DNA from: an uncultured Pelagibacteraceae bacterium
GTDB lineage: Bacteria > Pseudomonadota > Alphaproteobacteria > Pelagibacterales > Pelagibacteraceae
Direction of reading: 5' to 3'
DNA: 64,000 bases
NCBI GenBank assembly: GCA_902589765.1
Contig: CACIUF010000001.1
Coordinates: 62,001-126,000 of the forward strand
Made by a program: the position numbers and the translations under genes. Under the pieces are notes generated by a model. It saw only the letters and a program-made list of their open reading frames with translations, was not told where the DNA came from and searched no databases. This document shows positions 49,355 to 54,979 of the stretch, piece after piece. Position 1 is the first letter of the stretch. Each line of letters begins with the position of its first letter.

Positions 49355-49918
49355 GTGAAAAATGTTTTTATTATTATAATTTTATTCATAACTTTAAAAA
49401 GCTTTGCTTTTTCAAAAGATAATTCATTTTATCCTGATGATTTATTTCACATAGATCATATGGATTCTCACAACAAAAAATTTGCGCTATATTTTAAAGG
49501 GCGAGAGAAATCGATTTTAGCTAGAGGTGAAGAAAGTAATTATATAAATGATTATCCAAAAGATCTTTATATCTATAATTATTCAACAAAGTCTTCTTCA
49601 CCATTGATCTCTTATGATTGGTTTCCCTCTCAAGCCAAGTTTCATTTAGAGGAATATGACTTTCCTGTATTTCCAGACGACTTTGCTTATTATCTTTTAA
49701 AAGATGATAAAACACTGGTGATGATTAGTGCAGTTAAAAGTTTAAACGCAAACTTTAAGTATGATATTTTTAATAAGAAACTTGAACTTTACCCCACTAC
49801 AGGAAAATTTGATTTTATTATTTCGTCTTTTTCTAAGGATTGTGGGCATTATAAATTTAAAGATAATTATAAGTGTAGTATTTATAAACCTTTAATCTCG
49901 AGTAATTTAATCAATTAA
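49355..49918 (+). CDS. Exported hypothetical protein
   Basis: Signal peptide MKNVFIIIILFITLKSFAFS (GTG start), 187 aa; converges on ftsY with 8 bp overlap. Confidence 0.65.
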   Translation: MKNVFIIIILFITLKSFAFSKDNSFYPDDLFHIDHMDSHNKKFALYFKGREKSILARGEESNYINDYPKDLYIYNYSTKSSSPLISYDWFPSQAKFHLEEYDFPVFPDDFAYYLLKDDKTLVMISAVKSLNANFKYDIFNKKLELYPTTGKFDFIISSFSKDCGHYKFKDNYKCSIYKPLISSNLIN

Positions 49919-50828
49919 TCTGCGTAAAAGCTTCAGCAAATTTTTCTGCATTAAATAATTGTAAGTCGTCTTCTTTTTCGCCCAAGCCTAAAGCAATAAT
50001 AGGTAATTGATATTTTTTTGCTATCGCCAATAGAATACCGCCTTTGGCAGTTCCATCTAATTTGGTCATGATTAAACCAGTTAATGGAATAATTTTGTTA
50101 AATTCTTCTACTTGATTAATTACATTCTGTCCCGATGTTGCGTCTAAAACTAAAATAATGTTGTGAGGGGCATCCTGGTCAATTTTTTTTGTAACATTGG
50201 CTATCTTTTTATATTCCTCCATTAAATTTTTTTTATTTTGTAGTCTTCCAGCAGTATCGATTAGTACTTGGTGAAAATTATTTTTGATTGCTTCTTCAAC
50301 TGCTTTATATGCGACTGATGCTGGATCAGAACCTTGAGATGATTTAGTTATTTTAACGTCAATTTTATTTGCCCAGTTTTCTAATTGTTCAATAGCTGCT
50401 GCTCGAAAAGTATCAGAAGCGGCAAACATAACTTTGTTCCCGTTAGTTTTTAAAATTTTACCTATTTTACCAATAGTTGTTGTTTTGCCAACACCATTCA
50501 CACCTGAGATTAATGTTGCATTGAGTTTATCTTTTTTTTCGAAAAAAGAATTATTCTCTAAAGGTTTCATTAGATTAATAATATATTCTTTTAAAATAAG
50601 ATTTATCTCGGTTGATAAATCTTTATTTGGATCGATTTTTTTTCTTGAAATGATTTCCTTGATCTCAGACGCAGCCTCGACACCTACATCTGACTCAATT
50701 AAAAATTCTTCAATTTTATTTAAATTTTTATCGTCAATCTCTTTTTTTATAATTATTTCTTTTAGTCCAGATGTCAGTGCAGATGCACTTTTTTTAAAGC
50801 CTATCTTAAATTTATCAAAAATTCCCAT
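49911..50828 (-). CDS. ftsY: Signal recognition particle receptor FtsY
   Basis: LISGVNGVGKTTTIGKIG, AASDTFRAAAIEQLENWA, IDTAGRLQNKKNLMEEY, MTKLDGTAKGG. Confidence 0.97.
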   Translation of the reverse strand: MGIFDKFKIGFKKSASALTSGLKEIIIKKEIDDKNLNKIEEFLIESDVGVEAASEIKEIISRKKIDPNKDLSTEINLILKEYIINLMKPLENNSFFEKKDKLNATLISGVNGVGKTTTIGKIGKILKTNGNKVMFAASDTFRAAAIEQLENWANKIDVKITKSSQGSDPASVAYKAVEEAIKNNFHQVLIDTAGRLQNKKNLMEEYKKIANVTKKIDQDAPHNIILVLDATSGQNVINQVEEFNKIIPLTGLIMTKLDGTAKGGILLAIAKKYQLPIIALGLGEKEDDLQLFNAEKFAEAFTQIN

Positions 50829-51652
50829 TATAGTTTGAACTCAATTTCTTTTATTTCTGAAACGGGTCCTTTCATGTGGATTGAATTTTTATTATCTATA
50901 AGAATTGATAATTTACCTGTTTGAAATTCTATGTCTGTTTTATTTTCAGTAAGATCATTTAATTTACCAGCAAATGCTGTTGCACATGCAGCTGTTCCAC
51001 ATGCTTTGGTCAGCCCCGCTCCTCTCTCCCATACTTTCACTCTAATTAAATTTTTATTAATTATTGTAGCAATTGTAACATTACATTTTTCTGGAAAAAT
51101 TTTATGATTTTCAATTTCGGGTCCAATTTTTTCAATATTAAAATTTTCAATTTCGTTTACAAAAAAAACAATATGTGGATTTCCAACATTAACTGCCGTC
51201 CCACCTGAATGTTCTTTGTTATTTGAGTCAATAATCTTAATATTTAAATTTTTTGTATCTAGTTTTTCTGATAAAGGAATTTCGTTCCATTGTAATTTAG
51301 CTTTACCAATTTCAGTCGTAACAATGTTTTTATCTAATATTTTTGACTCTAAATTTCCATTTGAAGTTGACAAAATGATGTTTTCAGATTTTGTCTCCTC
51401 GGAGATTAATTTTGCAACACATCTAGTACCATTTCCACACGCACCAGACTCTCCTCCATCAGAATTAAAAAATTTTAAATTTGCATCACTTGATTTGCTA
51501 GATTCAATAAATATTAATTGATCACAGCCAATAAAATTTCTATCACAAATTTTTATGATTTGATCTTTAGTCAAATTGGTAATCTTTTGTCTATTATCAA
51601 TTATTACAAAATCATTACCTAATCCATCCATTTTAAAAGCCCTAATATCCAT
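50828..51652 (-). CDS. dapF: Diaminopimelate epimerase
   Basis: FKMDGLGNDFVIID, FNSDGGESGACGNGTRCVA, NVGNPHIVFFV, WERGAGLTKACGTAACAT. Confidence 0.97.
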   Translation of the reverse strand: MDIRAFKMDGLGNDFVIIDNRQKITNLTKDQIIKICDRNFIGCDQLIFIESSKSSDANLKFFNSDGGESGACGNGTRCVAKLISEETKSENIILSTSNGNLESKILDKNIVTTEIGKAKLQWNEIPLSEKLDTKNLNIKIIDSNNKEHSGGTAVNVGNPHIVFFVNEIENFNIEKIGPEIENHKIFPEKCNVTIATIINKNLIRVKVWERGAGLTKACGTAACATAFAGKLNDLTENKTDIEFQTGKLSILIDNKNSIHMKGPVSEIKEIEFKL

Positions 51653-51701
51653 ATATAGTTATTTAACTTATTTATTGACTTTTTGAACCTCTATTATAGT
51701 T

Positions 51702-51803
51702 TGTAGCAGTTTCCGCAAAAACGTTAAATTTGCGGTGTCTTTGGAAACAAAGAGATCGACACTAGTCAGCGAGGGTTCGCCCACTAGTGCGATTACTGCT
51801 GTG
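51702..51803 (+). ncRNA. Candidate structured RNA / ffh 5' leader: closing stem enclosing three hairpins
   Basis: P1 AGCAGT(51705-51710)/ACTGCT(51795-51800), extendable by wobble pairs; P2 CCGCAAA(51713-51719)/TTTGCGG(51729-51735); P3 TTTG-GAAA-CAAA(51740-51751) with outer TGTC/GACA; P4 CACTAGT(51760-51766)/ACTAGTG(51783-51789) capped by GGG-TTCG-CCC; ffh ATG at 51814. Confidence 0.7.
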
Positions 51804-51813
51804 TGAAATAAAT

Positions 51814-53172
51814 ATGTTTGAAAATTTAACAAATAAATTTGAGGAAGTTTTTTCCTCTCTAAAAAAAGCCCCTTCGCTTGATGAGAGTCAAGTTGATGAA
51901 GGCCTTAGAGCCATTAGACAAGCCTTACTAGAGGCTGATGTATCGCTTGAGGTCGCAAAAGATTTTATTGAAAAAGTTAAACCTAAAGCTTTAGGTCAAG
52001 AAATTATCAGATCTACATCTCCTGGTGATATGGTTGTAAAAATCGTTTATGACGAATTAGTTAATTTATTAGGTGAAAAAAACATTGATGTAAATTTAAA
52101 CGCCGTTCCTCCCGTACCAATGATGTTAGTTGGTCTACAAGGTTCAGGTAAAACTACCACTACTGCAAAACTTGCAAGATATTTAGAAAATACAAAGAAA
52201 AAGAAGGTAATGATGGTCAGCTTAGATATTTATAGACCAGCTGCACAAGAACAATTGAAATCTTTAGGTGAGCACAATGATATCTTAACTTTACCAATTA
52301 TAGAGGGTCAACAACCAGCAGATATTTGTCAGAGAGCAATAAGTGCTGCAAATTTAAATGGTGCCGACATTATCTTATTTGATACAGCTGGCAGAACACA
52401 AATAGATCTTCAAATGATGAGTGAAATAAAGCAGATTGAAAATATAATCAATCCCGCTGAAACTTTTTTAGTTGCAGATTCTTTAACAGGTCAAGTAGCA
52501 GCATCAGTTGCAAAAGAATTTAAAAATACTGTAGGTTTATCAGGAATTATTTTAACAAGAGCTGATGGTGATGCCAGAGGTGGGGCCGCGGTAAGTATGA
52601 AATTTGTATCAGAGGTTCCAATTAAGTTTTTAGGGGTAGGAGAAAAAATTGAAAATTTTGAGGTGTTTCATCCTGATAGGATTGCTAACCGAATTCTTGG
52701 AATGGGAGATATTGTATCTCTAGTTGAAAAAGCAGCACAAGATTTAGGTGAAGAAAATATTAAAAAGACAGAAGAGAATTTAAAAAAGGGACAATTTTCA
52801 ATGCAAGATTATTTAACTCAACTAAGACAGATGAAAAAAATGGGTGGAATAGAGGGAATAATGTCTTTTATGCCAGGTATTTCTAAAGTTAAATCACAAA
52901 TGGATTCTGCTGGTATTGACGAGAGTGTTATCACTAAGAACGAGGCTATAATTTTATCGATGACAAAAAAAGAAAGAGAGAACCCAAAAATAATCGATGG
53001 TTCTAGAAAAAAAAGAATTGCTAATGGTTCTGGAACTGATCCAGCCACTATCAATAAATTGTTAAAACAATTTAAAATGATGTCTGAAATGATGAGAAAG
53101 ATGTCTAAAGGAAATCTGAAAGGTATGTCTGACAAAGGAATACCACCAGAATTATTTAATCAATTAAAATAA
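51814..53172 (+). CDS. ffh: Signal recognition particle protein Ffh
   Basis: MLVGLQGSGKTTTTAKLARYL, LDIYRPAAQEQL, FDTAGRTQIDLQMMSE, LTRADGDARGGAA; Met-rich M domain; start set at 51814. Confidence 0.98.
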   Translation: MFENLTNKFEEVFSSLKKAPSLDESQVDEGLRAIRQALLEADVSLEVAKDFIEKVKPKALGQEIIRSTSPGDMVVKIVYDELVNLLGEKNIDVNLNAVPPVPMMLVGLQGSGKTTTTAKLARYLENTKKKKVMMVSLDIYRPAAQEQLKSLGEHNDILTLPIIEGQQPADICQRAISAANLNGADIILFDTAGRTQIDLQMMSEIKQIENIINPAETFLVADSLTGQVAASVAKEFKNTVGLSGIILTRADGDARGGAAVSMKFVSEVPIKFLGVGEKIENFEVFHPDRIANRILGMGDIVSLVEKAAQDLGEENIKKTEENLKKGQFSMQDYLTQLRQMKKMGGIEGIMSFMPGISKVKSQMDSAGIDESVITKNEAIILSMTKKERENPKIIDGSRKKRIANGSGTDPATINKLLKQFKMMSEMMRKMSKGNLKGMSDKGIPPELFNQLK

Positions 53173-53185
53173 AAAAGGAGAGTAA

Positions 53186-53683
53186 ATGTTAAAACTTAGA
53201 TTATCAAGAGGTGGAACAAAGAAAAGACCAGTTTACAAAGTTGTTGTAGCTGATAGTCGTTTTGCAAGAGATGGACGTTTCATAGAAAAAGTTGGTTTTT
53301 TTAATCCTCTATTACCTAAAGAAAAAAAAGAGAGAATAGGATTAGAGGCTGAAAGAATTAAATATTGGTTAGGCCAAGGTGCACAACCAACTACAAGAGT
53401 AGCAAGAATCTTAGGTGAAAATGAGTTAATGCCAATGCCTGCTAATGGTAATAATCCTCAAAAAGCTATTCCAAAAAAAGATAGAAAAAAAGAAGGGTCT
53501 GATGATGCTAAAAAGGAAGAGGCAGCAAAAGCAGACGCAGCACCGACAGATGGAGCAAAAAAAGAAGAAGCTCCAAAAGCAGAAGCTAAAAAAGAGGAGG
53601 CTCCAAAAGCAGAAGCTCAAAAAGCAGAAGCTAAAAAAGAGGAGGCTCCAAAAGTAGAAGCTCCAAAAGAGGAAAAAAAGTAA
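53186..53683 (+). CDS. rpsP: 30S ribosomal protein bS16 with long K/A/E/P-rich C-terminal extension
   Basis: [41 protein letters not shown]; extension of [10 protein letters not shown]-type repeats. Confidence 0.97.
53500..53682 (+). repeat. In-frame degenerate repeats encoding [10 protein letters not shown] in rpsP tail
   Basis: Repeated gctccaaaagcagaagctaaaaaagaggag-like units. Confidence 0.8.
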
Positions 53684-53697
53684 TTTAAGGTTTACTT

Positions 53698-54384
53698 ATG
53701 TTAAAGACACAAGTGTTAACACTTTATCCAGAAATTTTCCCTGGTCCGTTAAACAAAGGATTATATGGAAAAGCAATGGCTAAAAAGATATGGAGTCTTA
53801 ATGTAGTAGACATAAGAGATGCAGCAACAGATAAACACAAAACTGTTGATGACACTCCATATGGTGGTGGATCAGGTATGCTGTTAAAAGCAGACATACT
53901 AGCAAAATCAATTGATAAAAATATCCAGAAGGGGGAAAGAATTTTTTATCTTTCGCCAAAAGGAAAAAAATTTGATCAAAGACTTGCACAAGATTTATCA
54001 AAAGAAAAATCATTCAGTTTAATTTGTGGACATTTCGAAGGTGTTGATGAAAGAGTACTATCCACAAGAAATATTGAGGAAATAAGTATAGGAGATTATG
54101 TGCTTTCTGGAGGGGAAACAGCTGCTCTTGTAGTTCTTGATAGTGTGTTAAGACTTTTGCCTGGAGTTTTAGGTAATGATAAATCATCTTCGGAGGAAAC
54201 TTTTGAAAATGGTCTTTTAGAGTATCCTCAATATACAAAACCTCAAATTTGGGAGGAAAAATCAGTACCAGATGTCTTATTATCAGGGGATCATAGCAAA
54301 ATTAAAGACTGGCGTTTATCTCAATCTGAGGCTATAACACGCGTCCGAAGACCAGATTTGTGGCAAAAATATAAGAAGGATTAA
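53698..54384 (+). CDS. trmD: tRNA (guanine-N1)-methyltransferase
   Basis: [66 protein letters not shown]. Confidence 0.97.
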
Positions 54385-54400
54385 CTTGATAAATATTGAA

Positions 54401-54979
54401 ATGAAAACGATTGAAGAAATAAATCAACATAATGTAAAAAAAATTCTTTCGGAAAAAAAGATTCCAGAATTCTTTCCAGGTGATGTTGTAAAAGTTGGTG
54501 TAAGAATTACAGAGGGAAAAAAAGAGAGAATTCAGTATTTTGAAGGAGTATGTATTGCCAAAAAAAGCAGAGATTTAAATTCTTCTTTTACAGTTAGAAA
54601 GATTTCTTTTGGTGAAGGTGTTGAGAGAACATTCCCACTATTTGGTACAGTAATTGACTCAATTAAAGTTATTCGTTCAGGAAAAGTTAGAAGAGCTAAA
54701 CTATATTACTTAAGAGATAGAACTGGGAAATCAGCTAGAATTGCCGAAAAAATAAGAAAGAAGATTGGTATTGATATAGATGTAAAACCAGAAACAGTAA
54801 CTGAAGAAAATTTAGCTCCTGTTTCAACAGAAGCATCTGATAATAAAGAAGATTTAACTAAGGCAGAGGCTAAGAAAGAAGAAACTCCTAAGGAAGAGCC
54901 AAAAAAAGAAGAAACAGCCAAAATTGAAACAAAACCTAAAACTGAAGAAAAACTTGAAACTTCTCCAGAAAAAAAATAA
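54401..54979 (+). CDS. rplS: 50S ribosomal protein bL19 with K/E/P/T-rich C-terminal extension
   Basis: [58 protein letters not shown]...[23 protein letters not shown]; alternative TTG start at 54386. Confidence 0.97.

Follow-up and report, generated by a model that had tools for sequence, protein, structure and literature searches.

A multi-hairpin RNA upstream of ffh is kept before rpsP in a marine clade without detectable SRP

The ffh motif and its copy in a SAR11 genome

The ffh motif was first described from 'Cand. Pelagibacter ubique' as a bulged hairpin 5' of ffh, seen in metatranscriptome small-RNA sets and without likeness to the Ffh-binding part of 4.5S RNA, with regulation of ffh as a possible role (Meyer et al. 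2009, PMC2704228). Since 2009 the function of this family has been unknown, and it is tied to SRP by name; its Rfam model, RF01793, spans 52 nt and holds the pairs of the last hairpin only, referred to here as P4. The 4.5S RNA (RF00169) shares with the ffh RNA a link to Ffh by name, while sm5 of Sinorhizobium meliloti is a predicted RNA of ~108 nt in the same dapF-ffh gap and on the same strand, put forward as a free-standing sRNA that has an intrinsic terminator, and likened here by locus, not by sequence (PMC2573895). RNA-seq in Bartonella lists the RNA as an ffh leader RNA (PMC7717549). The rpsB and rpsL motifs from the Meyer et al. SAR11 study exemplify autogenous ribosomal-protein leaders, which are likewise structured 5' leaders of ribosomal-protein operons. 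For one such operon, rpsP-rimM-trmD-rplS, a 2024 review reports no regulatory information, a rare situation among ribosomal-protein operons (PMC10931766).

The window analyzed here is a stretch of 64,000 nucleotides from a Pelagibacter-type (SAR11) genome, in which a leader RNA occupies the divergent gap between dapF and ffh. An earlier note, made from the sequence of this window, had proposed a compact multi-hairpin segment at this site, and we place it at 51704-51803 on the plus strand, its 3' end 11 nt 5' of the ffh ATG (51814). The segment folds at -41 kcal/mol against -25.2 +/- 3.2 for shuffled sequences (z -4.9; 0 of 200 shuffles as good), and its GC content of 47% exceeds the 30.7% of the window, with just 0.5% of 102-nt windows equally GC-rich; the note had remarked on a GC content clearly above that of most intergenic DNA in the window. 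The RF01793 covariance model matches at 51745-51798 over its full length (54.4 bits, E 1.4e-7; curated cut-off 35 bits). The hairpins 5' of ffh are an object already known, namely the ffh motif in its SAR11 form, an RNA conserved very widely in alphaproteobacteria; the RNA candidate from SAR11 comparative genomics that the note mentioned is this motif (PMC2704228). Locus, RNA and the single bulged hairpin with a covarying stem and two conserved C in its bulge are the same, and the ffh ATG follows P4 by ~25 nt. Our description goes beyond RF01793 in two more hairpins (P2 and P3), in the nucleotides that P2 shares with the P3 base, and in a promoter box and a 3' element; it also covers a wider distribution and includes copies that precede rpsP in PS1, a clade in which no SRP was detected. 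The note was right that this is a structured RNA, and cis-regulation, one of the two roles that it named, is probable.

The leader heads a plus-strand operon in which the first gene, ffh, encodes the SRP GTPase (51814..53172; Pfam SRP54, SRP_SPB and SRP54_N) and is followed by rpsP for ribosomal protein bS16 (53186..53683; Ribosomal_S16), trmD for the tRNA m1G37 methyltransferase (53698..54384; tRNA_m1G_MT) and rplS for ribosomal protein bL19 (54386..54979; Ribosomal_L19). On the minus strand, ftsY and dapF lie back to back with ffh (window 49911-53172), so that in SAR11 both SRP GTPases flank a single divergent promoter region. Ahead of its ATG, ffh has an open frame that reaches back to a GTG within the 3' arm of P4 (window 51787-51813), and automatic annotation could therefore begin ffh inside the RNA. 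Both bS16 (165 aa) and bL19 (197 aa) carry long K/E/A-rich C-terminal tails coded by tandem repeats (window 53560-53674 and 54858-54961); since many SAR11 contigs stop ~1.7 kb after the RNA, at rpsP, these repeats may break assemblies.

Hairpins, promoter box and a candidate switch

Two alignments were compared, one of 57 distinct SAR11 leaders aligned on sequence alone and one of 70 other alphaproteobacterial leaders. Hairpin P2 pairs CCGCAAA (51713-51719) with UUUGCGG (51729-51735); 98% of its cells are paired in the SAR11 set, two of its pairs have changes on both sides, and G-C is replaced by A-U in 10 of the 57 leaders. Hairpin P3 (51738..51753) joins UCUUUG (51738-51743) through a GAAA loop to CAAAGA (51748-51753), with 99% of cells paired and double-sided changes in five of six pairs. 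Hairpin P4 (51760..51789), the RF01793 core, consists of CACUAGU/ACUAGUG and GCGA/UCGC around a GGGU loop, with an internal loop of C-C and A-C at 51767-51768 / 51781-51782; it is 100% paired in SAR11, where two pairs changed on both sides, and in PS1. The second alignment was fitted to P2-P4 and its counts lean towards that structure: paired cells there, relative to shuffled sequences, amount to 85 versus 53% for P2, 90 versus 56% for P3, 99.6 versus 82% for P4 and 100 versus 92% for the P4 tip. By comparison of related genomes, P2, P3 and P4 carry compensatory changes across alphaproteobacteria, as the earlier note had asked of the P2 and P4 stems. The extended model of the whole leader (51704..51803), captured in our models R1 and R2, ends in a conserved element that reads GCUGUG here (51798..51803) and GUUUGG or GUUGG elsewhere, and that column frequencies place 9-14 nt after P4 in alphaproteobacteria, SAR11 and PS1 alike. 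All of these features lie on the plus strand; R1 and R2 also match the minus strand more weakly (window 51746-51843), because P4 is nearly palindromic.

The hairpins drawn by eye in the note thus survive in part. Its P2 and GAAA-capped P3 agree with the comparison, as does the P4 stem, but the tip GGG-UUCG-CCC is only 79% paired, shows no covariation and is rejected in favor of GCGA-GGGU-UCGC, which is paired in 100% of relatives. The proposed UGUC/GACA extension of P3 shows no covariation and gives way to CGGU/AUCG as the supported outer pairs, and an AUCG/CGAU pairing beneath P4 is unsupported outside part of SAR11. The closing helix AGCAGU/ACUGCU (P1) is likewise rejected: it is paired in only 59% of SAR11 cells, is not conserved and hardly exceeds shuffled partners (8/300 in SAR11, 69/300 outside SAR11 and 245/300 in PS1 on comparison with partner-shuffled sequences). 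A conserved TTGAC (-35-like) box precedes the RNA by 29-30 nt, so that the transcript is expected to start at the 5' arm of P1 or after it. This box, the putative leader promoter (51675..51679, plus strand), is present at that spacing in 37 of 38 leaders from SAR11, and no more than 60 nt away in 67 of 69 leaders from other alphaproteobacteria and in 12 of 12 from PS1, against a background of 0.08 per 65 nt; a generic promoter scan of the region returned no significant promoter.

RNAalifold chose, unprompted, the basal P3 extension of CGGU (51733-51736) with AUCG (51755-51758) (51733..51758, plus strand), whose 5' strand shares three nucleotides with P2 (51733-51735). The earlier note had envisaged a switch in which the outer pairs of P3 compete with the base of P4 for 51760-51761; helix competition as such has some support, but the supported outer pairs compete with P2, at 51733-51735, and not with P4. 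At the triple formed by the P2 5' strand, the shared base and the P3 3' strand, 10 of 57 leaders carry A-U-A in place of G-C-G, two G-U intermediates occur, and on the Ffh tree this corresponds to two independent changes on two branches, too few for a significance test. The P3 base is paired in 68% of cells in other alphaproteobacteria versus 57.5% after shuffling. In PS1, where it can be read without P2, it shows the compensations CGGU..AUCG to CAAU..AUUG to CAGU..AUUG. The P2 and extended-P3 states differ little in energy across SAR11 (median -0.9 kcal/mol, range -7.9 to +9.4), and in the window's own copy the P2 state is favored by 6.3 kcal/mol. The P2/P3-base overlap is, on these comparative data, a possible switch. 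A single leader (L236, 3061-3183) has an improved P3 base (G-U to A-U) and a broken last P2 pair, a pattern expected if the extended P3 matters.

Distribution and the PS1 clade

RF01793 was found in 348 of 397 Pelagibacterales genomes, including all 13 genera sampled. Across the class, our R2 model (P2+P3+P4) recovered the RNA from 213 of 385 alphaproteobacterial genomes, a higher proportion than the 75 of 289 reached with RF01793, in two class samples that overlap but are not identical and with R2 trained partly on the same loci from an alignment in which five antisense or spurious rows were left. Position provides an independent check, as all 60 further R2 loci examined lie 4-218 nt 5' of ffh; weak R2 matches in Gluconobacter and Neokomagataea are also just 5' of ffh. 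Wherever enough sequence was available, rpsP and rimM are found downstream of the RNA, with rpsP several kb away in some genomes, and outside SAR11 the gap from RNA to start codon ranges from 4 to 285 nt. A plasmid copy from Mesorhizobium huakuii has been reported as RF01793 (PMC5596092); R2 gave no match on the examined stretch of M. huakuii pMHb, for which record versions may differ, and a BLAST search of plasmids with an alphaproteobacterial leader found nothing.

A separation of the RNA from ffh first appeared in three genomes of the PS1 clade that gave no ffh and have the RNA immediately 5' of rpsP. In 18 PS1 genomes, up to 97% complete, we detected neither an SRP54 GTPase domain above the cut-off nor an SRP54_N domain nor 4.5S RNA (each 0 of 18), while both domains were present in 14 of 14 control genomes and YidC was found in 15 of the 18, including six of the six good ones. 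Homology searches thus indicate an apparent loss of the whole SRP pathway (Ffh, FtsY and 4.5S RNA) in this marine clade. The RNA is nevertheless retained in 14 of the 18 genomes, 27-34 nt 5' of rpsP (bS16), at a locus that keeps dapF divergent upstream and rimM, trmD, rplS and leuC downstream. Within PS1, P4 and P3 vary by paired changes, and the RNA is therefore no decaying relic. The PS1 split is one evolutionary event.

A proposed leader of the ribosome-linked operon

The constant association of the RNA with one operon led us to favor a function in cis. We consider, with moderate confidence, that the RNA is a cis-acting 5' leader of the ffh-rpsP-(rimM)-trmD-rplS mRNA and that what it controls is the operon's ribosome-assembly part, because it heads the same operon always, stays with rpsP when ffh goes, and belongs to an operon whose regulation is reported as unknown. 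Tuning of this ribosome-linked operon, rather than sensing of the export particle, is its probable role. What computation contributes to the leader reading is the promoter box, the compensated hairpins, the P2/P3-base overlap, the constant position and survival without detectable SRP; that control is directed at ribosome assembly is inferred. The operon encodes rpsP and rplS, and in PS1 the RNA lies directly before rpsP, as would suit a ribosomal-protein leader. The likeliest effector would then be an operon-encoded ribosomal protein, bS16 or bL19, which may bind near the invariant P4 and shift the P2/P3 balance, so that the first cistron, with its SAR11 start codon ~25 nt after P4, would be translated less. 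Direct blocking of the start site would not be general, given the variable gap outside SAR11, and ffh would be controlled as the first passenger of the operon. Tentatively, the "ffh" RNA may even be the autogenous leader that the bS16/bL19 (trmD) operon has been missing in Alphaproteobacteria, with two states (P2 versus extended P3, read out at P4) that respond to a ribosome-assembly protein instead of SRP; this would explain why the RNA outlived SRP in PS1. It differs from known autogenous ribosomal-protein leaders in that ffh is the first gene outside PS1, the effector protein is a candidate only and rRNA mimicry was not found: R1 found nothing in the E. coli rrn operon that resembles the leader (best E 1.2), and a search there with the C-C loop pattern gave chance-level matches only. 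Visible mimicry of rRNA is not shared by all ribosomal-protein leaders.

Feedback on ffh, in which Ffh or SRP load acts on the leader, was raised as possible by Meyer et al. 2009 (PMC2704228) and fits the position of ffh directly downstream in every lineage examined but PS1. We regard it as improbable, since PS1, without Ffh, FtsY or 4.5S RNA by homology, keeps the RNA under structural selection before rpsP, and since the leader is unlike the Ffh-binding domain of 4.5S RNA. Unless the RNA switched job in PS1, sensing of SRP cannot be its general function, and the note's suggestion of a sensor for SRP or membrane-protein load is not supported in that general form. The note was correct that the core of SRP RNA is missing: the leader lacks the GGAAGCAGCC-type Ffh-binding core that distinguishes 4.5S RNA, no RF00169 match occurs in the window, and the genome has its own 4.5S RNA gene elsewhere (contig C2), so that identity with SRP RNA is rejected.

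An independent small RNA, formed from the ~100-nt leader by termination or processing and acting in trans, is in our view unlikely, although several observations point that way. Rfam classes RF01793 as a small RNA gene, sm5 was predicted in the S. meliloti dapF-ffh gap at 108-258 nt with a terminator and array signals (PMC2573895), the motif appears in metatranscriptome small-RNA sets (PMC2704228), the RNA has its own promoter box, and a run of at least four T follows P4 within 12 nt in 60 of 121 non-SAR11 alphaproteobacteria. Such a run is missing after P4 in 23 of 25 SAR11 and 8 of 10 PS1 leaders, however, synteny with the operon is essentially invariant, and a stand-alone copy was not found. 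The same tail bears on transcription attenuation, in which the P2/P3 switch would decide whether P4 acts as an intrinsic terminator. About half of non-SAR11 alphaproteobacteria have 4-6 U behind a GC-rich P4, and this and the overlap of P2 with the P3 base are what an attenuator would display, but the U tract is missing in the window and in most SAR11 and PS1 copies, for which a universal intrinsic terminator is rejected, and a terminator scan of the window region found none; we give attenuation a small probability. A passive leader that stabilizes the 5' end of the mRNA without an effector has a slighter one still. An mRNA can gain protection from hairpins at its 5' end, and bS16 and bL19 are candidate effectors only, yet the conserved unpaired and loop letters (the C-C loop, GAUC and the 3' GUUGG element) and the conserved competing helices exceed what a simple stabilizer needs.

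As far as we searched, the literature describes neither the extended structure nor the wider distribution nor the separation from SRP, and we found no paper in it that links PS1 and SRP. PS1 represents a natural experiment that separates the RNA from SRP and points to the rpsP-rimM-trmD-rplS operon, and this separation makes both the function of the RNA and the regulation of the trmD operon directly testable.
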